Shown: positions 7,230 through 42,631 of the stretch, piece by piece
Numbering within the stretch: position 1 is the stretch's first letter
How the letters are laid out: each line of letters opens with the position of its first letter
NCBI GenBank assembly: GCA_025056895.1
Contig: JANWVJ010000006.1
Coordinates: forward strand, 1-55,374
DNA from: Thermoflexales bacterium
Lineage (GTDB): Bacteria > Chloroflexota > Anaerolineae > J036 > Brachytrichaceae
Direction of reading: 5' to 3'
Length of the DNA stretch: 55,374 bases
Notes under the pieces: model-generated
What the model was told of the DNA's origin: nothing
Databases searched by the model: none
What the model saw: only the letters and a program-made list of their open reading frames with translations
Program-made: the position numbers and the translations under genes

Positions 7230-7311
7230 GGGGATGTGTCGAAACTGGCAGACGAGCATGACTTAGGATCATGTGGCGCAAGCCGTGTGGGTTCGAGTCC
7301 CACCATCCCCA
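7230..7311 (+). tRNA. tRNA-Leu (anticodon UAG)
   Basis: A complete class II tRNA. The acceptor stem GGGGATG pairs with CATCCCC. The anticodon stem CATGA/TCATG encloses the loop CTTAGGA with anticodon TAG at 7264-7266. A long variable arm follows, then the T arm GTGGG-TTCGAGT-CCCAC. The discriminator base is A, which is usual for leucine tRNAs. The 3' CCA is not encoded (the genome reads ATG after CCCC). It sits just before trigger factor in the same direction. Confidence 0.95.
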
Positions 7312-9625: not shown

Positions 9626-12600
9626 TCACTTCTTCTTCGGGAAGCGGCTAAGTACGGTAGCCGGCTCCGGCACAATCGTTCGACTGCCCAGCGGCGCGTG
9701 GGGGGAGAGCGGAGCCGGCGGGCGCTCCGGCAACGCCAACACACCGATGGCCATCCCTTCTTTGGCATTCAACGCAGCATCCACCATCGCCATGCCCAGC
9801 AAGTACCCCTCGCCATCAGGCGCGCACGAGGTGACGGCGCCGATCACGCGGCCGCGCGCATCGACAATCGGATCGCCTTGCTTGGGCGGGCGCACGCCTT
9901 TCTCATTCATGCGGAACCGCACCAACTTGGTATTCGCCTGGGCCGCTTTCTCGTAGTAGGCGCGCTTGCCGATGAAGAAAGGTTTATACGCTTTGACGTA
10001 GCCGCCAAACCCGATGTGATAGGGCGCCAAGTTGAGCGGGCCGGCCAGTTCATGGCCGTATAACGGCAAGCCGGCTTCGGTGCGCGTCGAGTCGCGCGCG
10101 GCCAGGCCGGCTGGTTGCACTCCCAGGTCGGCGCCGGCCTCCAGGATACGCCGCCAGAGCAACGGAGCATGTTCGGGATGGACAAAGAGCTCATACCCCA
10201 CTTCCTCGCCGGTGTAGCCGGTGCGCGAGATGAACACATCCAAGCCGGCCAGTGTGGCGCGCATCACGCCGGTGCGAGGCAATGCGTGCAGCGCGCGGCG
10301 CGCCCCGTCATCGGCGAGCAATGCCAACAGGGTCGGCAAAGCAGCCGGGCCTTGCAACGCGATATCCACGCGCCGATCTGCTCCGCTGTCCGGGTGGCGC
10401 AGATCGCGCAACGTACAATGCGGCGCGCACACGGCCGGCCAGAGCGGATCAATTACGGCGCGGCTTTCGTTCACCGACGTCAGCCAAGCCCAATCCTTGT
10501 CGTTGTTGGCTGCATTGACGACAATCAGATATCGCTCCGCTTCCACCCGATAGATCATGACATCGTCGATCACATCTCCTTGCGGGTCGAGCAGGTACGT
10601 GTATTGTGAACCGCCTACCTGGATATCGTGCACATCGTTGGTGGAAACCAAATCGAGGAACAGGGCGGCGTTCGGCCCACACGCTTCTAGAACACCCATG
10701 TGACTGACATCAAACAGGCCGGCAGTTTGGCGCACAGCTCTGTGCTCTTCGGCAGCCGAGGTGTACCATACCGGCATCTCCCAACCGCCAAACGGCACCA
10801 TCCGCGCGCCCAGCGCCTTATGCGTCTCATACAACGCCGTGCGGCGCAATACTCCGCCGTCCCCTGTCGTCTGTACTCTATCGTCTGGACTTTGTGTTCG
10901 GTGTTGTGTGCCTTGTGCTGTGTGTTCTATGTTCTGTGCTCTGTGCTCTGTGATGTGTCGTCTGCCGATGAAGTAAGGCTTGTGCAAGGCGACGCTGGCC
11001 GCATCGAAGGCGGCGGGCAATTGCGCAACGTCGAAGCCGGCAGCGCTGGTGACTTTGACCACAACCGGCCCCGGCAGCTTGGCATGGACATCGTGATCGT
11101 CAAACTGCACATAGCCGTCGGACAGAGCGCGCAGCCAGCGCGCCACACGCTCGATCTTGTCTGCCGGCACTGCCAACCGATAAGTCGAGCCGGTGTTCAA
11201 AATGATCGCTGGCGACATCGGGCTGCCGTCGCGCTCCAAGAGCCAAACAGGCTGAGTTTCTCCAACGGCCAACGCCGCTATGTCACCGGTCAAAGCCAGT
11301 TGAAGAAATGCGCGGGCGTGTGAGCCGGCGATCTCCAGCGCGCGCAAGCCGGAGGCCGGCAACGGTTCAACCGGCCTGACGCTGGTCCACACATGCGGAT
11401 AATCCTCAGGGGGCACGTCGGCGTCCACAGCGGCCTTTTCACACAGCCGGCTGATGCGCGCAGCGCCGTCGAGCAAGGCATCGAAATCCACTTTGGCGCG
11501 ATAGGTCGTGGCGCGGGCGCTGGTCAAAGTAAACGGCTTGGCGGTCTTCAGAATCTGCGCCACCACGGCGGCAATCTCACGCATATCCTCTTCGTTTAGG
11601 CCACGCTGAGTGACCCAGGGCGTGCCAAAGCGCAACGCGCTGGGACGTGTGGCATCACGGTCACCTGGAATGGTGTTGCGGTTGCACACAATGTTAGCCA
11701 GATCGAGGATGCGGGCAGCCCCGTCGCCCATCAACGGCACGCCATTCAGCGGCGGCACAACCGTCTTGCAATCGACCAAGACCATGTGGGTGTTGGTGCC
11801 GCCATGCACCACCCGTAGGCCGTTGTCGGCAAAAGCTTGGGCCAGCGCCTGGGCATTGACCACGATCTGATGTTGCAAGCGACGGAATTGCTCGGTGCGC
11901 GCCAGCTTAAACGCAACGGCTATGCCGGCGATTTTGTTCATGTGCGGCCCGCCTTGCTCGCCGGGGAATACGGCGCGATCAATTTTGCGCGCCAATTCTG
12001 GGTCGGTCGTCACGATGACCGCGCCGCGCGGGCCGAGCAGCGTCTTGTGCGTGGTGAAGGTGGTGACATCCGCAACGCCGACCGGGTTCGGATACACGCC
12101 GGCAATGGCGAGGCCGGCCACGTGCGAGATATCGGCCATGAGATAAGCTCCGCAGGCGTCGGCAATTTCACGGAACTTGTGAAAATCGGGCGCCCAGGGA
12201 TAAGAGGTGTAGCCGGCAATGATCATCTTCGGCTTCTCGCGCAGCGCGATTTCTCGGATTCGGTCGTAATCGAGCAACTCGGTCTTCTCGTCCACTTCAT
12301 AGAACACCATGCGATGATGCTTGCCGCTGTGGTTAACTGGGCTGCCGTGCGACAGATGGCCACCGTGCAACAGGTTCAATCCCATCACCGTATCGCCCTC
12401 GTTGACCAGCGCCTCATAGACAGCGGTGTTGGCAACTGCGCCGGCCAGTGGTTGCACATTCAGGTAAATCTGATGTGGCGACAGGCCGGGGGGGCAAATG
12501 GCCTCTGCACCGCGCCGCTTACACAACTCTTCAATCAGATTGCAGTACTCGACGCCCTTGTAATAGCGCCGATCGGCGTACCGGCGGTAGAACGCCAACT

Positions 12601-12838
12601 GCAAGTCATAGTCCAAAATCTCGGCCTCGGATAAGCCGTGCATATCCGGATGCGCATAGCCTTCAGCGTACAAATTTTGAAACACCGATCCTTCGGCTTC
12701 GCGTACAGCAGCCGGCGCGCTGGACTCGCTGGGAATCATGATCAGCTTGGCAAACTGGCGGGCGTGTTCGTGTTGAATCAGTTCGGCGACTTCGGGATCA
12801 ACCGTAGCAAGGTCGCCGCGCGTGAGATAGTCGGTCAC
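9626..12838 (-). CDS. glyA-gcvT: Serine hydroxymethyltransferase fused to glycine cleavage T-protein (GlyA-GcvT)
   Basis: A 1070-residue fusion of two one-carbon enzymes. Residues about 1-440 are serine hydroxymethyltransferase, with the PLP-binding lysine in TTFTTHKTLLGPRG near residue 263. Residues about 440-625 hold a weaker T-protein-like module ending in KPYFIGRR. Residues about 630-660 are a low-complexity linker encoded by heptanucleotide repeats. Residues about 662-1060 are a full aminomethyltransferase (MVPFGGWEMPVWY, SHMGV, RTGYTGEEVGYE, YKPFFIGKRAYY). Together they would exchange serine/glycine and handle the methylene-tetrahydrofolate of glycine cleavage; GcvH and GcvP are not in the window. 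GTG at 12838 is chosen because GAGGAG lies about 10 bases upstream; the longer frame from 12898 overlaps a likely -10 box (TACAAT on this strand at 12894-12889). Confidence 0.92.
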   Translation of the reverse strand: MTDYLTRGDLATVDPEVAELIQHEHARQFAKLIMIPSESSAPAAVREAEGSVFQNLYAEGYAHPDMHGLSEAEILDYDLQLAFYRRYADRRYYKGVEYCNLIEELCKRRGAEAICPPGLSPHQIYLNVQPLAGAVANTAVYEALVNEGDTVMGLNLLHGGHLSHGSPVNHSGKHHRMVFYEVDEKTELLDYDRIREIALREKPKMIIAGYTSYPWAPDFHKFREIADACGAYLMADISHVAGLAIAGVYPNPVGVADVTTFTTHKTLLGPRGAVIVTTDPELARKIDRAVFPGEQGGPHMNKIAGIAVAFKLARTEQFRRLQHQIVVNAQALAQAFADNGLRVVHGGTNTHMVLVDCKTVVPPLNGVPLMGDGAARILDLANIVCNRNTIPGDRDATRPSALRFGTPWVTQRGLNEEDMREIAAVVAQILKTAKPFTLTSARATTYRAKVDFDALLDGAARISRLCEKAAVDADVPPEDYPHVWTSVRPVEPLPASGLRALEIAGSHARAFLQLALTGDIAALAVGETQPVWLLERDGSPMSPAIILNTGSTYRLAVPADKIERVARWLRALSDGYVQFDDHDVHAKLPGPVVVKVTSAAGFDVAQLPAAFDAASVALHKPYFIGRRHITEHRAQNIEHTAQGTQHRTQSPDDRVQTTGDGGVLRRTALYETHKALGARMVPFGGWEMPVWYTSAAEEHRAVRQTAGLFDVSHMGVLEACGPNAALFLDLVSTNDVHDIQVGGSQYTYLLDPQGDVIDDVMIYRVEAERYLIVVNAANNDKDWAWLTSVNESRAVIDPLWPAVCAPHCTLRDLRHPDSGADRRVDIALQGPAALPTLLALLADDGARRALHALPRTGVMRATLAGLDVFISRTGYTGEEVGYELFVHPEHAPLLWRRILEAGADLGVQPAGLAARDSTRTEAGLPLYGHELAGPLNLAPYHIGFGGYVKAYKPFFIGKRAYYEKAAQANTKLVRFRMNEKGVRPPKQGDPIVDARGRVIGAVTSCAPDGEGYLLGMAMVDAALNAKEGMAIGVLALPERPPAPLSPHAPLGSRTIVPEPATVLSRFPKKK
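10861..10951 (-). repeat. Heptanucleotide repeat array encoding the GlyA-GcvT linker
   Basis: On the coding strand, 13 consecutive 7-base units follow each other without a gap. They run from ACAGAGC, ACAGAGC, ACAGAAC and ATAGAAC through ACACAGC and ACAAGGC to ACAGACG and ACAGGGG. Because 7 is not a multiple of 3, the array is read in all three phases and gives a 7-residue peptide period (EHRAQNI, EHTAQGT, QHRTQSP, DDRVQTT). Units decay away from the GlyA side. Confidence 0.85.
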
Positions 12839-12940
12839 AGGTTGATTGCTCCTCGCAGAATTGAGACTGTGATTACAAAGCGCGGCGGATTGTAGCATCG
12901 AGCGGCGCCAGGCCGGAGCGTCGCAAAGATGCGTGAGCGA

Positions 12941-33285: not shown

Positions 33286-34215
33286 TCAGCCCTTAATGGC
33301 GCCGGACATGATGCCCTGGACGATCTTGCGTTGGAAGACGAAGAACAGGATGAGCAACGGGACGGTAGCCATGACGCTGCCGGCGAACATCAAGTCGTAC
33401 ATCGGGGCGCGAATGGTAGTGCCTTTGAAGTTAGCCAGCGCAACCTGCACGGTGCGGATGTCGTTGTCCTTGAGGATCAGCGAGGACAGCACAAATTCGT
33501 TGTACACGCTCACGAAACCGAGGATTCCCAACACCACCATGCCGCCGGCCATGATCGGCATCACGATGCGTGTGACGATGGTGAACTGCGATGCGCCGTC
33601 GATTGTGGCTGAATCGATCAGCTCGTCGGGAATAGTCGAGACAATGAACTGGCGCATCATGAAAATGCCGAACGCACTGGCCGCGCCGGGAATCCAGAAC
33701 GGCAGATAGGTATTCATCCAGCCGAGCCGGCCGATCAGGATGTAGAACGGCACGAAGTTGATCGCCGTAGGCATGAGCATAGTGAGCAGTATGAAGGCGA
33801 ACAACTGATTCTTGAACGGAAATTGGCGCTTGGCAAACACATAGCCGGCCAGCGTATTGAAGAATACCTGCAATAGCACGGCCACCGTTGCCATCAGCAA
33901 GGAATTGAAGATGTATCGCAGAATGTGGAAGCGCTCCAGATTCTGGATGGTAGTCGTGACGTCGATCTTGAGAAGCAAGCGATAGGCTGTCAGCGTCGGG
34001 CCATCCGGCGGCCACAGAACCGGATACAGCCGGAATAGTTCTTCTTTCGGCATCAGCGAGCCAATCAACATCGAGTAAAAGGGGAACAGAAAGGCGATTG
34101 ATAGAAAGATCAAGAAGGCATACAGCAGACCGTAACTGATAATCTGCCGGATGTTAACGCCGCGCCTCGATCTGACAATCGGACTGGATGTGACCGGAAC
34201 GGTTGTTGTCGCCAT
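33286..34215 (-). CDS. Sugar ABC transporter permease, MalG-like
   Basis: A 309-residue CUT1-type inner-membrane permease with six predicted transmembrane helices, the first at about 28-50 (YGLLYAFLIFLSIAFLFPF). The cytoplasmic EAA loop, which contacts the ATPase, is in the region IPDELIDSATIDGASQFTIVTRIVMPIM (about residues 205-232). It pairs with the MalF-like gene upstream and the lipoprotein at the head of the operon. No ATPase gene is in this operon, so a shared MsmK/UgpC-type ATPase elsewhere is expected. ATG at 34215 follows AAGGGGA. A terminator closes the operon. Confidence 0.9.
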   Translation of the reverse strand: MATTTVPVTSSPIVRSRRGVNIRQIISYGLLYAFLIFLSIAFLFPFYSMLIGSLMPKEELFRLYPVLWPPDGPTLTAYRLLLKIDVTTTIQNLERFHILRYIFNSLLMATVAVLLQVFFNTLAGYVFAKRQFPFKNQLFAFILLTMLMPTAINFVPFYILIGRLGWMNTYLPFWIPGAASAFGIFMMRQFIVSTIPDELIDSATIDGASQFTIVTRIVMPIMAGGMVVLGILGFVSVYNEFVLSSLILKDNDIRTVQVALANFKGTTIRAPMYDLMFAGSVMATVPLLILFFVFQRKIVQGIMSGAIKG

Positions 34216-34235
34216 ACCCGTTTCCCCTTTGTACT

Positions 34236-35201
34236 CTATTGCTTGAGCTTGCCTTCGACCGTCCACCAGCCGCTCAGGAATTTCATTTGAATGAGGGTGA
34301 TGAGAAGCACGATGCCGCCGATGATGAACCCGAAACCGGCGCCTTCGCCATAACGCACCGAAGTCATCAAATCGATCATGCGCATGAACAAGGTCAGGGT
34401 AGTGCCCTCCGGCCCACCGTTGGTCAACAGCTTGACCGGCGCATACAGGTTGATCAGGCCGATCGTGGCGGTAATGATCATGAACAACATGACTGGGCGA
34501 ATCAAGGGGAGGGTGATATTGAAGAACTGCTGCGTACCGCTGGCGCCGTCGATCTCGGCAGCTTCATACAGCTCACGATCGATCGATTGCAGAGCGCCTA
34601 GAAAGATCAGCACGTTTGTGCCGATACCCATCCAGTGCAACAACAGGGTGATCGACAACTGAGCCGGGATCGTTTCGGTCAACCAGGGAATCGGCGGAAT
34701 GCCGATCTTGCCGAGCAACAAGTTCACCCAGCCGTAGTTTTTATCGAGAAGCTGCTGGAACACGATGGCGACAATGACTTGCGAAGTGACGAAGGGCAGA
34801 AAGAACAACGTGCGAAAGAAACTACGGCCAACCAGCCGTTTGGCGTTCAACATGACGGCCAAAATCAGCGCTCCCCCGAGGCCGGTCGGCAAAATCCACA
34901 ACAACATAGCCAGCGTGTTCAGTAGGGCACGTCCCAGCTCGGGGTCGGTGAACAGCAGCGTGTGGTAGTTTTGCAAGCCGACATACACCATGTCCCGCCC
35001 CGGCTGCCAGCGTGACAAGCTGAGCTGAACCCCAAAGAGCAAAGGATAGACGCCAAAAATGGCAAACAAGATGTAGAACGGGGAGATGAACAGATAATCG
35101 GTACGATGCTTCCACATGTCGCGCAGCGTGCTGCGAACATTGGAGCGGCGTCTGCTCTCTGCCTTGGCCTGTTGGGCGGGGATATGAGTAGCCTGTGCCA
35201 T
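34236..35201 (-). CDS. Sugar ABC transporter permease, MalF-like
   Basis: A 321-residue CUT1-type permease. A short cytoplasmic tail rich in Arg is followed by six transmembrane helices, the first at about 35-57 (YLFISPFYILFAIFGVYPLL). The EAA loop is in DRELYEAAEIDGASGTQQFFNITLPLI near residue 225. The large second periplasmic loop of E. coli MalF is absent, as in most CUT1 systems. ATG at 35201 has AGAGG upstream. The gene ends 20 bases before the MalG-like gene. Confidence 0.9.
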   Translation of the reverse strand: MAQATHIPAQQAKAESRRRSNVRSTLRDMWKHRTDYLFISPFYILFAIFGVYPLLFGVQLSLSRWQPGRDMVYVGLQNYHTLLFTDPELGRALLNTLAMLLWILPTGLGGALILAVMLNAKRLVGRSFFRTLFFLPFVTSQVIVAIVFQQLLDKNYGWVNLLLGKIGIPPIPWLTETIPAQLSITLLLHWMGIGTNVLIFLGALQSIDRELYEAAEIDGASGTQQFFNITLPLIRPVMLFMIITATIGLINLYAPVKLLTNGGPEGTTLTLFMRMIDLMTSVRYGEGAGFGFIIGGIVLLITLIQMKFLSGWWTVEGKLKQ

Positions 35202-35528: not shown

Positions 35529-36893
35529 TTACTTGAGCGACTCAAGCAGCTTGGCGTTCTCACTGCGCACATAGTCGCCGTACTCTTTCATGCCGTCCTT
35601 GATCGACTTTTCGCCGCGCAACATGGGCGGTACAAACTTGGCCAGCGCTCCGTAGGCGATACCGTAGCCCGGCATGCGATAGAAGTCCGTGCGCATCTGA
35701 TCCATTGCCTTCAGGATTTCGCCTGTCCAGTCCCAGCCGGCCTCAAACAGAGTCTGTTTGGCATTCTTAAACTCGGACTTGAGCCAGGGCAAATACGGCG
35801 GGATGATGCCCCAATCGCCGGTGACCTGTGCGCCTTCCATGGTGCAGAAGGTGAACTCCATGAACGCCTTCACCAGGTCGGGCTGCGGGTTGGACGCGAA
35901 CGAGACCAACGTTGCGCCGCCCCAGACATTCGTGCGCGCTTTGCTGCCGGGGTAGATCGGCACAAGTTGGTTGCGCCACTTGCCCTGCCCTTGCTCGGGC
36001 GTGGTGACTTCTGTTTGGAAGAAGCCACGCATCCAGGGCGGCGAGTATGTGCCGGCCAACTTATTCTCTTTGATGGCGGCCCAATACGGCGGCGAGAACC
36101 AACCGGCATTCAGGCCGGCGCCGGTGTCCCAGGCTTGTTTGGCATATTCCATAGCCTGCAAACCGATTTCACTGTCCACCAAGACTTGTTCGCCGGTCTC
36201 ATCGGTAAAGTTGCCGCCCAAAGAATAGAACGGCACAGCAAACATCAGGGTGCCTTGGCCGTCGAACGTCTCTTCCATCACAAACAGGCTGGCGTCGGTC
36301 TTGGACTTGACCTCTTTGGCCATCTGCAAAAACTCGTCGTATTGAATGTCTTCTTTCATCGGCCCAACGCCGGCCTGCTCCAAGAGGTCGGGGCGCCACC
36401 AGAGGTTGTTGGGGGTGATGTCGCCCGGCATGCCGTAATACTTGCCTTGATAGCGCGCCTCGGCCAGCTTAGCCGGCGCCAGTTCAGACTCATGCTTCTT
36501 GACTACGTCGGTGACATCCAGGAGGATGCCGCGCCGTGCATCGCGTTGGACGTTTGTAGCTTCTTGCCACACCATATCAGGCAAGCCACTACCGGCAGCC
36601 AATGCTGACTCAACTGCCTTGTCCCACTCGGCCATTTCCGGTTGCTCGAAGATGACCTTGGGATACTTCTTCATGAAAGCCTGGCCGGCGTCATAAATAG
36701 GGTGATCTTGATGCCCCCAAAAGACCAGCTTACCTTCCAGTTCGCCGGAAGAAGCCGGAGCAGGCGCTTCCTTAACTTCTTCGGCTGCCGGCTTGGGAGC
36801 CGGTGCAGCAGCCGGCGCGCAGGCAGCCAGCGCCGTAGCAGCGGCACCTAGACCGGCAACTTTGAGAAACTCGCGTCGAGAAACCGATTTCAT
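35529..36893 (-). CDS. Sugar ABC transporter substrate-binding lipoprotein (family 1)
   Basis: A 454-residue extracellular solute-binding protein. The N-terminus MKSVSRREFLKVAG has a twin-arginine (SRREFLK) motif, then a hydrophobic stretch ending in ALAAC, so it is probably a Tat-exported lipoprotein. A Pro/Ala/Glu linker follows to about residue 50. The mature domain starts with LVFWGHQDHPIYDAGQAFMKKYP and contains the family 1 features MAEWDKAVESALAAGSGLPDMVW. It captures a mono- or oligosaccharide for the two permeases downstream. GAGGAG lies seven bases before the ATG. The upstream region has a promoter, phased repeats and an inverted repeat. Confidence 0.9.
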   Translation of the reverse strand: MKSVSRREFLKVAGLGAAATALAACAPAAAPAPKPAAEEVKEAPAPASSGELEGKLVFWGHQDHPIYDAGQAFMKKYPKVIFEQPEMAEWDKAVESALAAGSGLPDMVWQEATNVQRDARRGILLDVTDVVKKHESELAPAKLAEARYQGKYYGMPGDITPNNLWWRPDLLEQAGVGPMKEDIQYDEFLQMAKEVKSKTDASLFVMEETFDGQGTLMFAVPFYSLGGNFTDETGEQVLVDSEIGLQAMEYAKQAWDTGAGLNAGWFSPPYWAAIKENKLAGTYSPPWMRGFFQTEVTTPEQGQGKWRNQLVPIYPGSKARTNVWGGATLVSFASNPQPDLVKAFMEFTFCTMEGAQVTGDWGIIPPYLPWLKSEFKNAKQTLFEAGWDWTGEILKAMDQMRTDFYRMPGYGIAYGALAKFVPPMLRGEKSIKDGMKEYGDYVRSENAKLLESLK

Positions 36894-37077: not shown

Positions 37078-37332
37078 TCAATTCAATGGCCGCAAGGCAG
37101 GCAAGCTAGCAGCCGCAATAGACTGACCTACACGCCGGCTGCGCTCATCGGGCAACTGGATGTGGATGCGCGTTGCCAGTTCCGGGAACTCGGTGCGCAG
37201 CACCTCACTTGCCCCATCCAGAATCAATTGCCCGCCACGGCCAGAGGTACAGCGTCCCAGGATCAACACATGCTTCAAGTCGTAGAACTCCGCATACTGC
37301 GCGATGCCATAACCGAGAAAGTAGCCCATGCT
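37078..37332 (-). pseudogene. 3' part of the ROK gene, cut off by an in-frame TAG
   Basis: This 84-codon stretch continues the ROK reading frame immediately after the TAG at 37335-37333, with no shift: ...GAIQIW, stop, SMGYFLGYGIAQYAEFYDLKH... It contains the conserved ROK C-terminal strand HVLILGRCTSGRGG. Coding character is intact, with no further stop until the natural TAG/TGA-type end near the ABC operon. It has no ribosome-binding site of its own before the ATG at 37329. So it is the tail of the upstream gene, not a separate one. Either the mutation is recent, the stop is read through, or it is a base-call error. Confidence 0.75.
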
Positions 37333-38481
37333 CTACCAGATTTGAATGGCCCCCGGATGGCCGGCTTCTAGATAGCGCTGGACAAACTTGAGCTTTTCGG
37401 CGTCGGGAATGTCATCAGGAATCTGGATGCCAGCGCGTGGGGCAAGCCGAAACACGCACTGTTGAGAGAAATACGATGCACCCACGCCATGGTCGCCTGA
37501 CCATTCATCGGCCGGAGCAGCAGGGTTATAGTCCACCGGCGCAAACGCCAACTCACTCAACCAACCGGTGAGATTGCCATCGCGATCAACATATCCGGCT
37601 GCTTGACTCGACCCCATCGCGATACCCAGGACACCGTTATCATCCAGCGACATTGCGCCGGCCAGTGCTGTTACGTCGCCGTCGTTGATCACCTCCAGCG
37701 GCACGCTCAACTCGTCGGCGATGCGCAGGAACAGATTGCGCACTTGGTGAAAGCGGTCTTTAGGCACGCCGCGAAACAGAGAAGCCACCATCGGGCGATT
37801 GTTGATGATGATGCCGGCCGAGCTGCCGCCGATGGCATCTACGCGCGGGAGATGGGCCGCCGCCGATTTCAGGCCGGCCATGATCTTGCGATAGTGATAG
37901 TCAGGATCGCTGTGCTTGCGCGGCTCCCAGATCACCTCTTCGCTGTACACAGGCCGGCCATCGATGACGGCCGATGCTTTGCGGTCGGAAGCGCCCAGAT
38001 CAAAGCCGATGCGGCAACCGTCCAGATGCCGGCCCAGCGGCTTGCTCGTTTCATTGGCCGGCGGCGCTTCCTGGGGAGCGCAAACCACAACCGTGAACGG
38101 GCGCTCATAAACCTCTTCGCCCATAAAGTGATAGTCGAAGTGTCGGTCGCCGGCAGCCGAGTAGCACTGCCGAATGTGTTCGCCGATGCGGGACGAGCCA
38201 CCTACATACACTTTCCAGCCGCCGCGCTGCCACAGCAAAAACTTCACTAATCGCTCGGCATAGCGCAGATTGGCCGCAGCGCCAGAATGATCGTCCGCAA
38301 AGACAACCGTCTCATAGCGCGATACGGCACCGTCGTTGCGCTCGATGGCCAGCACAAGCGGCGCAACGGCTCCAGAAGCCAACACAGCCTGGCGAAAGGC
38401 GCGACTGGCTAGCGCAACAGGACAAAATCCCTCATCAAGAGGAGGCGTGAAACGCGGCTTAACCAGTGTCAGGTCTTCCAT
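37333..38481 (-). CDS. ROK family protein (sugar kinase/regulator type), ended early by amber codon
   Basis: A 382-codon frame that, with the following 84 codons, would make a ROK protein of 467 residues. ROK proteins are sugar kinases such as glucokinase, or repressors; no helix-turn-helix is seen here. Residues about 1-150 are an N-terminal extension unlike ordinary ROK kinases. The ATP-binding strand GFDLGASDRKASAVIDG is near residue 165, followed by GGSSAGIIINNRP and NDGDVTALAGA. The conserved CxCGxxGC zinc motif is not evident. ATG at 38481 is fixed by AAGGAG eight bases upstream. It lies between the sugar ABC operon and the divergent GntR gene, which fits a sugar kinase for the imported sugar. 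Confidence 0.72.
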   Translation of the reverse strand: MEDLTLVKPRFTPPLDEGFCPVALASRAFRQAVLASGAVAPLVLAIERNDGAVSRYETVVFADDHSGAAANLRYAERLVKFLLWQRGGWKVYVGGSSRIGEHIRQCYSAAGDRHFDYHFMGEEVYERPFTVVVCAPQEAPPANETSKPLGRHLDGCRIGFDLGASDRKASAVIDGRPVYSEEVIWEPRKHSDPDYHYRKIMAGLKSAAAHLPRVDAIGGSSAGIIINNRPMVASLFRGVPKDRFHQVRNLFLRIADELSVPLEVINDGDVTALAGAMSLDDNGVLGIAMGSSQAAGYVDRDGNLTGWLSELAFAPVDYNPAAPADEWSGDHGVGASYFSQQCVFRLAPRAGIQIPDDIPDAEKLKFVQRYLEAGHPGAIQIW

Positions 38482-38781: not shown

Positions 38782-38787
38782 CATATT

Positions 38788-38835: not shown

Positions 38836-39627
38836 ATGCTGCTGGACAAGCTCGATTCTGACCTCGCGCGCTACATCATCGAGCGCGGATTTCGGCCCGG
38901 AGACCGGCTGCCACCACTAGAAGAGATCAGTAAAGAGCTGGAAATCAGCATTGGCAAGTTGCGTGAACAACTCGAAGTGGCGCGCAGCTTGGGTCTGGTC
39001 GATGTGCGTCCGCGCGCCGGCATCCGGCTTTCCGAGTATAGCTTCCTCCCCGCGATCCGCTTCAGTTTATTGTACGCCCTCGCTTACAATCCCGCCCATT
39101 TTGAGACATTTAGCGCCTTGCGCAATCACGTTGAATCTGCCTTCTGGGACGAGGCCGTCCATCGCTTGACGGCAGAAGATCATCGCCAGTTGCTTGCCAT
39201 CGTTGAACGAGCGTGGGCTAAGCTGGAAGGCCGGCCGATTCACATTCCACACGCCGAGCATCGCGCCCTGCACATGACGATTTTTGGCCGGCTGAACAAT
39301 CCGTTTGTGCTGGGCTTGCTGGAGGCCTACTGGGAAGCATATGAAGCTGTCGGCCTGAATGTATTTTCGGACTATGAATATCTGCGCGAAGTGTGGACGT
39401 ATCACGAGCGCATTGTGCAAGCAATCGTAGCGGGCCGGCTGGATGAAGGTCACCGCTTGTTGGTGGAACATGCTCAGCTTTTGCAGCACCGCGAGCCGGC
39501 CAGAGCCGGCGGGTCACGCGCCCGTTCCACGCGCGCGGCTGACAGCAAGACAAACGGTCGAGTCGAGCGCAAACAGGGCAATCCCGTTTCGCTCGGCGAA
39601 ACAACCCTGACCCAATCGCGTCACTAA
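38836..39627 (+). CDS. GntR family transcriptional regulator, FadR/FCD subfamily
   Basis: A 263-residue regulator. The winged helix-turn-helix is N-terminal (RGFRPGDRLPPLEEISKELEISIGKLREQL, about 17-46, then LGLVDVRPRAGIRLSEY). An all-helical FCD ligand domain spans about 70-215, with AEHRALHMTIFGRLNNP and YHERIVQAIVAGRLDEGHRLL; its histidine and aspartate side chains usually bind a metal and a carboxylate ligand. The last 45 residues are a basic, Ser/Arg-rich tail of low complexity that is not part of the family. It has its own promoter and operator. It could control itself, the ROK gene and the korAB genes that start 70 bases downstream. Confidence 0.88.
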   Translation: MLLDKLDSDLARYIIERGFRPGDRLPPLEEISKELEISIGKLREQLEVARSLGLVDVRPRAGIRLSEYSFLPAIRFSLLYALAYNPAHFETFSALRNHVESAFWDEAVHRLTAEDHRQLLAIVERAWAKLEGRPIHIPHAEHRALHMTIFGRLNNPFVLGLLEAYWEAYEAVGLNVFSDYEYLREVWTYHERIVQAIVAGRLDEGHRLLVEHAQLLQHREPARAGGSRARSTRAADSKTNGRVERKQGNPVSLGETTLTQSRH

Positions 39628-39634
39628 GCCATCG

Positions 39635-39648
39635 ACAAATTGATTTGT
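39635..39648 (+). promoter_or_regulatory. Palindrome upstream of korA, possible GntR-type site
   Basis: ACAAAT-TG-ATTTGT, a perfect 6-2-6 inverted repeat 49 bases upstream of the korA ATG. It has the same geometry (2-base centre) as the GntR operator but different sequence. Confidence 0.4.
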
Positions 39649-39696
39649 AGATCGATCAACCTACATGTGGAGTATGGAAGTGGAAGGAGAAACGAG

Positions 39697-41556
39697 ATGA
39701 TTGCTTCAGTGCAACCCAGTCAGCAGGCCGGCCTTCACGAGGAAACTCTGGCCAGCCGATCCCCAGTCGTCAACGACTTTTCGATCATGGTCGCAACCAA
39801 GAATGGTTCGGGCAGCCAAACGGCCAACACGACCTTGCTGCGCGCTCTGTTCAAGATGGGCATTCCGGTCAGCGGCAAGAACTTGTTCCCCTCCAATATC
39901 CAGGGGATGCCCACTTGGTACACGATCCGCGCGAATAAAAACGGCTTTGTGGCTCGCCGGCCACACGCTGAAATCGTCGTCACGCTCAACCCAGCAACCG
40001 CCCTCGAGGACTACCAGTCCGTGCAAAGCGGCGGGTTCTTCATGTACGCCGATGACATCAAGCTGCCGCTGAGTCGAAGCGACATCTCGCACTATCCCAT
40101 CCCGGTGAAGAAGCTGGCAACCGAGAATGAGAAGGAACCCAAGCTACGCACCTACGTGGCGAACATGGTGTACGTCGGCGCGCTGGCCCAACTGCTGGGC
40201 ATCGACTTGGCAGATATCGAAAGCGCCCTTCTCTTCCACTTCAAAGGTAAGCGCAAGCCGGTCGAGTCGAACATGAAGGTGGTGCGCCTGGCGCACGAGT
40301 GGGCAGCGGAAAACCTGATCAAGACCGATCCCTTCCGCGTAGAGCGGATGAACGCCACCGAAGGACTGATCATGATCGACGGCAACACCGCCGGCGCCCT
40401 CGGCGCGATCTACGGAGGGGTCACTTTCGCTGCCTGGTATCCGATTACACCGGCCACTGGGCTGGCCGATGCCTTGAACCACTTTTTGCCCCAACTGCGC
40501 ACGGATCCCCAAACGGGGGCGCCTACTTATGCGGTTGTCCAAGCAGAAGATGAGTTGGCCGCGTTGGGAATGGTGGTCGGGGCCGGCTGGGTCGGAGCAC
40601 GCGCGATGACTTCTACTTCGGGACCGGGCATCTCCCTGATGACAGAGTTCACCGGCCTGGCCTACTTTGCCGAAGTGCCGGCGGTCATCTGGGATGTACA
40701 ACGTGTTGGGCCGAGCACAGGCATGCCCACCCGCGTGTCGCAAGGCGACGTACTCAAGGTGTACTTCCTAGGCCACGGTGACACCAAGCATCCTTGTTAC
40801 ATTCCCGGCAACGTGAAAGAATGCTTCGAGTTCGGTTGGCGCGCCTTCGACCTGGCCGAACGTCTGCAAACCCCTGTGTTTGTGCTAAGCGATCTCGACT
40901 TGGGCATGAATCAGTGGATGAGTGAGCCGTTCGACTACCCTGACCAACCGATGGATCGCGGCAAAGTGCTGAGCGCCGAAGACTTGAAGCGTCTGGGAGG
41001 ATTCGCACGCTATCGCGATGTGGACGGCGACGGCATCGGCTATCGCACCCTGCCGGGGACCGATCATCCACTGGCGGCTTACTTTGCGCGCGGCACCGGC
41101 CACAACGAGCGCGCCCAACTCTCCGAGCGCCCCGAAGACTGGGAGAACAATATGGTTCGCCTAGCCCGCAAGTTCGAGACGGCGCGCCGGCTGATGCCGA
41201 AACCGATTGCTGAATACGTGGAAGGCGCCGAAGTGGGCATCATCAGCTATGGCTCAGCCGATCCGGCCGTGCAAGAAGCGCGCGCTATGTTAGCAGAGGC
41301 AGGCTTGAAGACCTCCTATCTGAGATTACGCGCCTTGCCTTTGGAGCAAACAACGACCGAGTTTATCGCTGCGCATCGGCGCTGCTACGTGGTGGAGCTG
41401 AACAGCGATGCCCAAATGCTGCAACTGTTGCGCCTACACGCGCCGGAGTACGCCACACGGTTGCACGCTGCCAATCATTCAGACGGCCTGCCCTTGACAG
41501 CAGAATGGATCAGCACGGCCGTTCAGGCCGGCGAAGGTTCGGCCAACCGAGCGTGA
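39697..41556 (+). CDS. korA: 2-oxoacid:ferredoxin oxidoreductase, fused gamma-alpha subunit
   Basis: A 619-residue KorA-type subunit of a 2-oxoacid (2-oxoglutarate-type) ferredoxin oxidoreductase. This cytoplasmic enzyme oxidises a 2-oxoacid with CoA and passes electrons to ferredoxin. The gamma domain is N-terminal (about 10-190, MVATKNGSGSQTANTTLL ... GMPTWYTIRANKNGFVARR). The alpha pyrimidine-binding and transketolase-like parts follow: IDGNTAGALGAIYGGVTFAAWYPITPAT near 230, VQAEDELAALGMVVGAGWVGARAMTSTSGPG near 285. ATG at 39697 follows AAGGAG by seven bases. korB follows after 40 bases. 2-oxoglutarate is the usual substrate of this type, but pyruvate or branched 2-oxoacids are possible. 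Confidence 0.9.
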   Translation: MIASVQPSQQAGLHEETLASRSPVVNDFSIMVATKNGSGSQTANTTLLRALFKMGIPVSGKNLFPSNIQGMPTWYTIRANKNGFVARRPHAEIVVTLNPATALEDYQSVQSGGFFMYADDIKLPLSRSDISHYPIPVKKLATENEKEPKLRTYVANMVYVGALAQLLGIDLADIESALLFHFKGKRKPVESNMKVVRLAHEWAAENLIKTDPFRVERMNATEGLIMIDGNTAGALGAIYGGVTFAAWYPITPATGLADALNHFLPQLRTDPQTGAPTYAVVQAEDELAALGMVVGAGWVGARAMTSTSGPGISLMTEFTGLAYFAEVPAVIWDVQRVGPSTGMPTRVSQGDVLKVYFLGHGDTKHPCYIPGNVKECFEFGWRAFDLAERLQTPVFVLSDLDLGMNQWMSEPFDYPDQPMDRGKVLSAEDLKRLGGFARYRDVDGDGIGYRTLPGTDHPLAAYFARGTGHNERAQLSERPEDWENNMVRLARKFETARRLMPKPIAEYVEGAEVGIISYGSADPAVQEARAMLAEAGLKTSYLRLRALPLEQTTTEFIAAHRRCYVVELNSDAQMLQLLRLHAPEYATRLHAANHSDGLPLTAEWISTAVQAGEGSANRA

Positions 41557-41596
41557 CATCTTCAGAACAGCACAGTACAGCCAAGGAGAAAGCGAG

Positions 41597-42631
41597 ATGG
41601 GAACAGTATCGCTTCAAAAAGTGAATGTGATCGGGTTGCAAAAGGTTGACTACAAAGGCAACGATTCAACGTTATGCGCGGGGTGCGGGCACGATTCGAT
41701 TGCCTCGCAGATCATCACTGCCTTCTACGAGATGGGGATAAAGCCGGAAAACGTGATCAAACTGAGCGGCATCGGTTGCTCCAGCAAAAGCCCGGCCTAC
41801 TTCATGAATCGCGCGTGGGGATTCAATACGTTGCATGGGCGCATGGCGGCAGTTGCGACGGGGGCACTGACTGCCAATCATCACCTGATCGGCATCGGGG
41901 TAAGCGGAGATGGCGACACCGGCAGCATCGGGCTGGGTAACTTCAAGCACATGGTGCGGCGGAACGTGCGCATGGTGTACATCATCGAGAACAACGGCGT
42001 ATATGGTTTGACCAAAGGGCAGTTTTCTGCCACAGCCGATGTGGGTCAAGAATTGAAGCACGCCGGCCGGAACGAATTACCGCCCATCGATCTATGCATG
42101 GAAGCAATCACCGCCGAGTGCGGCTTTGTGGCGCGTTCGTTCGCCGGCGACCCCAAACAAGTGGTCACCTTGATCAAGGCTGCGCTCAGCCATCGCGGCA
42201 CAGCGGTGATTGACATTATCAGCCCGTGTGTGACCTTCAACAATCACGACGACTCCACCAAGAGCTACGTGTGGGGCAAAACCAACGATGACCGCATCAA
42301 CGACTTCACCTATGTACCGCACCAGGAAGAGATCACAGTAGATTACGAAGAAGGCGAAGTCAAAGAAGTCACTCTGCATGACGGCTCGCACATTTTGCTG
42401 AAGAAGGTGGACAGCAAGCACGACCCGACCGATCGCGCAGCGGCGATCAAATTGCTAGAAGAAGCCCGTGAGAAGCAGCTTTTTATCACCGGCTTGCTGT
42501 ATGTGGACAACCGCCGGCCGAATCTGGCGGAGACGCTGCGCTTAAACGGCACGCCGCTCGTTCACGTGCCGGCTGAGCGCCTACGGCCTTCGCGCGAGTC
42601 ACTGGAAAAGATTCTCAACTCGATGAAGTAA
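41597..42631 (+). CDS. korB: 2-oxoacid:ferredoxin oxidoreductase beta subunit
   Basis: A 344-residue thiamine diphosphate-binding beta subunit. Cluster and cofactor residues are seen in TLCAGCGHDSIA near residue 26, GIGCSSKSPAYF near 60, and the ThDP/Mg motif GDGDTGSIGLGNF about 30 residues before ENNGVYGLTKGQFSAT. Histidine-rich HGRMAAVATG is present. With korA it forms a complete two-subunit enzyme. AAGGAG lies eight bases before the ATG. The C-terminal 100 residues (EEGEVKEVTLHDGSHILLKK onward) are the usual tail. A strong terminator follows, so korA-korB is a closed unit. Confidence 0.92.
   Translation: MGTVSLQKVNVIGLQKVDYKGNDSTLCAGCGHDSIASQIITAFYEMGIKPENVIKLSGIGCSSKSPAYFMNRAWGFNTLHGRMAAVATGALTANHHLIGIGVSGDGDTGSIGLGNFKHMVRRNVRMVYIIENNGVYGLTKGQFSATADVGQELKHAGRNELPPIDLCMEAITAECGFVARSFAGDPKQVVTLIKAALSHRGTAVIDIISPCVTFNNHDDSTKSYVWGKTNDDRINDFTYVPHQEEITVDYEEGEVKEVTLHDGSHILLKKVDSKHDPTDRAAAIKLLEEAREKQLFITGLLYVDNRRPNLAETLRLNGTPLVHVPAERLRPSRESLEKILNSMK

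Follow-up and report, generated by a model that had tools for sequence, protein, structure and literature searches.

The ROK-like gene on the minus strand of the window (the whole 55,374-nucleotide stretch of Thermoflexales bacterium DNA analysed here) is interrupted by an in-frame amber codon, TAG, at 37333–37335, which probably marks a gene recently turned into a pseudogene by a nonsense change, or an allele of the sampled strain, and not special decoding of the stop. One transition would have produced the nonsense codon in a dispensable gene for a sugar-kinase-like protein of the ROK fold, located beside an intact sugar ABC-transport operon, and RF1 would end translation at codon 383. This reading takes the TAG base to be real rather than an assembly error, and the substrate of the protein is presumed to be a sugar. 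Recent loss of the kinase was one of four options given in the initial annotation; it is now the best supported of them, as the stop is unique, selection acted on the tail behind it until very recently, and the gene is deleted in a genus mate.

Layout of the interrupted gene and comparison with its relatives

The ROK-like frame comprises 467 codons and extends from ATG 38481 to its original terminator, TGA, at 37080–37078. Translation most likely starts at ATG 38481, which has an AAGGAG six bases upstream, and not at 38784, where the frame has its first ATG; ATG 38481 is also close to the point where the alignment of the relatives begins. The gene body upstream of the TAG (37336–38481, 382 codons) ends with GAIQIW, and the TAG (codon 383) is followed by SMGYFLGYGIAQY at the beginning of a tail of exactly 84 conserved sense codons (37332–37081), which contains the GRCTSGRGG segment and codes for the C-terminal helices of the ROK fold. 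Coordinates and frame confirm the position of the TAG between these two segments and the 84 in-frame codons after it, as well as the location of the conserved ILGRCTSGRGG segment in the tail, all of which had been noted initially. The TAG is the sole defect of the gene; a second stop or a frameshift was not found in it.

Searches for homologues, first in 60 related genomes and afterwards in 396 from the class, identified the gene in 73 genomes, that of the window included. An internal stop occurs in the window’s genome only and in none of the 72 other gene-bearing genomes of the class. In 33 distinct relatives, the column of the TAG is variable, with Gln (19), Glu (8), Arg (5) and Lys (1). All 33 have a sense codon at this place, ruling out that the relatives end at the same TAG. 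The nearest relative, G001, which belongs to the same genus, has CAG at this position, one transition away from TAG, in agreement with the single base change proposed in the initial annotation. Against G001, the tail reaches 91% amino-acid identity and the body 82%, and the invariant residues of the family include G-R-x-T-S-G-x-G-G in the tail and a C-terminal G-Q...A-A-A-S-L-P. The idea that the tail is an unrelated downstream reading frame is rejected by the alignment with the relatives. The absence of internal stops from the 72 other genomes, together with the higher identity of the tail than of the body, indicates that an in-frame TAG followed by a conserved tail is more than chance.

Fold of the predicted protein

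Searches of Pfam and NCBIfam with the window’s own protein alone yielded nothing useful, and the ROK model PF00480 did not match this copy even at an E value of 1, whereas a weak match was obtained for 8 of 12 family members (best E value, 4.2e-07). In the PDB, a family profile picked up a ROK regulator with an E value of 0.06. A structure model of the read-through protein, calculated from an alignment with 11 relatives (pLDDT 86, pTM 0.88), gave top Foldseek matches which were all ROK proteins, with E values of about 1e-17, comprising glucokinases, ManNAc and GlcNAc kinases, and Mlc-type regulators; TM scores normalised by target were about 0.7 (2qm1, 3vgk). The earlier designation as a ROK gene is borne out for the fold; the window’s own copy has no direct Pfam ROK match, and kinase activity and substrate are putative.

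Besides the fold, the protein shares with the ROK family (PF00480: glucokinases, ManNAc/GlcNAc kinases, Mlc/NagC-type regulators) a phosphate-loop-like FDLGASD and a catalytic-type ND. It differs in that the CxCGxxGCxE zinc motif and ExGH are absent, with WSGDxGxG and ELAF at the aligned places (ELAF where ROK proteins have ELGH), and in that about 150 residues precede the ROK fold. This N-terminal region is conserved in the protein encoded by 37078–38481 and its relatives, and no Pfam or NCBIfam model covering it was found. The protein is best called a remote member of the ROK fold, probably sugar-kinase-like, with an extra N-terminal region.

According to the structure model, the TAG falls inside a helix (residues 381–402). 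Truncation would remove strand 409–413 and the last helices, that is, the rest of the C-lobe, and with them the conserved GRxTSGxGG segment. As the ROK-type ATPase fold would be left without its end, the 382-residue product should be inactive.

Selection on the tail and loss of the gene within the genus

Selection was assessed with a joint codon model of body and tail, the ω values of which are rough, as synonymous sites are near saturation. On the window branch, ω was 0.088 for the body and 0.036 for the tail; for the tail, a value of 0.1 was rejected (2ΔlnL 4.8), and a value of 1.0 strongly so (33.6), indicating that the gene kept its function over almost all of this branch. From the upper bound, we roughly estimate that no more than about 5% of the branch lacked constraint. 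Strong purifying selection on the tail along the branch implies that the stop is either very recent or not real. An older pseudogene is rejected, given the strong constraint and the lack of further lesions. The body value did not differ significantly from the background, and a branch test for relaxation likewise gave no significant difference between window branch and background (2ΔlnL 1.1). In pairwise comparison with G001, ω of the ROK-like gene (0.075) was above the values of the transporter genes (0.025–0.032) and similar to that of a neighbouring sensor kinase (0.083).

The next gene on the same strand (35529–36893) codes for a sugar-type extracellular solute-binding protein (SBP_bac_1/8), 92% identical in G001 and G002, and is followed by two genes for ABC permeases (BPD_transp_1) at 34236–35201 and 33286–34266. 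All three are intact, and their order is kept in G001. The genus mate G002, the genome of which is 99% complete, also retains this transport operon (binding protein, 91–92% identity; permeases, 87–89%). Of the ROK-like gene, only the last 20 or so codons (DVRSRRVDQSVAAASLPALG and the stop codon; L097, 8604–8660, contig C27) remain in G002 upstream of the intact binding-protein gene. The leader between this relic and the binding-protein gene aligns to that of G001, with 79% identity over 234 bases including the relic. Upstream of the relic, a different gene is located on the other strand; still further upstream, fragments similar to the sialidase-like region neighbouring the gene in G001 were observed. 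The ROK-like gene was not found in the other genomes of the family examined. The relic beside the retained operon indicates that another member of the genus has lost the gene but kept the transport genes, and the reduction of the gene to about 20 codons next to a preserved sugar-transport operon means that loss is tolerated in G002.

On the other side of the ROK-like gene, the window (38836–42631, plus strand) contains a divergent GntR/FCD regulator gene and genes of 2-oxoacid:ferredoxin oxidoreductase subunits. These were not found in the upstream regions fetched from G001 or G002, so synteny breaks at the ROK-like gene. Elsewhere in the window, a single frame of 1090 residues (9626–12898, minus strand) combines serine hydroxymethyltransferase (residues 106–445) with glycine-cleavage T-protein (residues 689–954), an apparent GlyA-GcvT fusion.

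The interrupted gene resembles recent bacterial nonsense pseudogenes in its single in-frame stop, the intact frame on both sides, the intact orthologues, and the loss within the genus. Counting against a pseudogene are the presence of one lesion only and the lack, as yet, of any positive sign of relaxed selection. Relaxed selection marks older pseudogenes, and a very recent one need not show it. That no relaxation was detected is expected if the stop is very recent, and equally expected under a sequencing or binning error; with one lesion and no measurable relaxation, sequence alone cannot separate a recent nonsense pseudogene from a base error. The main rival, to which we assign a distinctly lower probability and which was also among the initial options, is such an error in the consensus, in which the base was miscalled, or a minority-strain or chimeric base entered the contig, and the gene of the organism is intact. 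An otherwise pristine gene with a conserved tail under purifying selection would agree with it, as would the nature of the source genome, a 3.29-Mb draft of 315 contigs and 87% completeness which fits a metagenome bin, and an error at a base one transition from the nearest relative fits the sequence nearly as well as a nonsense change. Yet the draft is not visibly error-rich, with no internal stop in 167 family-domain matches (80 ABC-ATPase, 57 permease and 30 response-regulator), and the stop hits a gene which a genus mate has lost, as a real event would. No paper on premature stops in metagenome bins turned up in a literature search.

Decoding of the amber codon

Amber suppression and programmed read-through had also been proposed for this site in the initial annotation, and the results contradict both. 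Within the limits of the 87% complete draft, PylS is absent, and no tRNA with a CUA anticodon, i.e., none reading UAG, is among the 38 tRNAs found (ARAGORN types), whereas RF1 is present as an intact prfA (521 bits). The tRNA-Leu at 7230–7311 (plus strand) has the anticodon UAG, which is easily misread; it decodes the Leu codon CUA, not the stop, and is rejected as an amber suppressor. TAG serves as a normal terminator in the window, namely of the trigger factor gene and of the permease gene two genes downstream of the ROK-like gene, where it falls exactly at the end of the relatives’ proteins. Searching the genome for other genes with an internal stop gave none in the 167 domain matches. A change of the genetic code is rejected on these grounds, and recoding is not supported by the sequence data. 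An in-frame UAG continued by conserved coding sequence is shared with known UAG recoding (pyrrolysine; UAG reassignment), but the state of PylS, RF1, other genes and terminators described above is not. In an alternative-code screen (PMC8629427), Chloroflexi are mentioned only for contamination by UGA-recoding contigs.

Programmed read-through appears unlikely, because the stop is not shared by relatives and a stem-loop is missing after it: predicted folding of the RNA past the TAG was worse than in 200 of 200 shuffles (z = +3.7), and no Rfam element matched there. The same observations, together with the presence of RF1, the absence of PylS, the lack of a CUA anticodon among the 38 tRNAs and the use of TAG to end neighbouring genes, make it improbable that UAG is read through at a tolerated low level, by near-cognate decoding or by a missed suppressor tRNA, yielding some full-length protein, despite a conserved tail that continues the frame and the chance that a tRNA gene is missing from the draft. 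Termination at the TAG and reinitiation at the ATG one codon on (TAG AGC ATG), resulting in a two-piece protein, is very unlikely: an in-frame ATG is indeed found three bases past the stop, but this Met is an ordinary one, common to the intact relatives (SMG), a clear ribosome-binding site just before it is lacking, the break would lie inside the modelled helix, and the gene is split at this place in no relative examined. Just as hard to credit is a suppressor tRNA, overlooked owing to the incompleteness of the draft, that reads UAG at this one site at a useful level and so preserves the full-length kinase-like protein. Neither read-through nor reinitiation has any positive sign in its favour.

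A recent nonsense change would mean that an accessory gene of a sugar operon has been caught as its loss begins, an event of little importance beyond the source genome. Among the species of the genus, one has retained the gene, a second, provided the base is real, has only now broken it, and in a third it is deleted. The case also provides a useful negative against reading TAG as amber recoding in this lineage.
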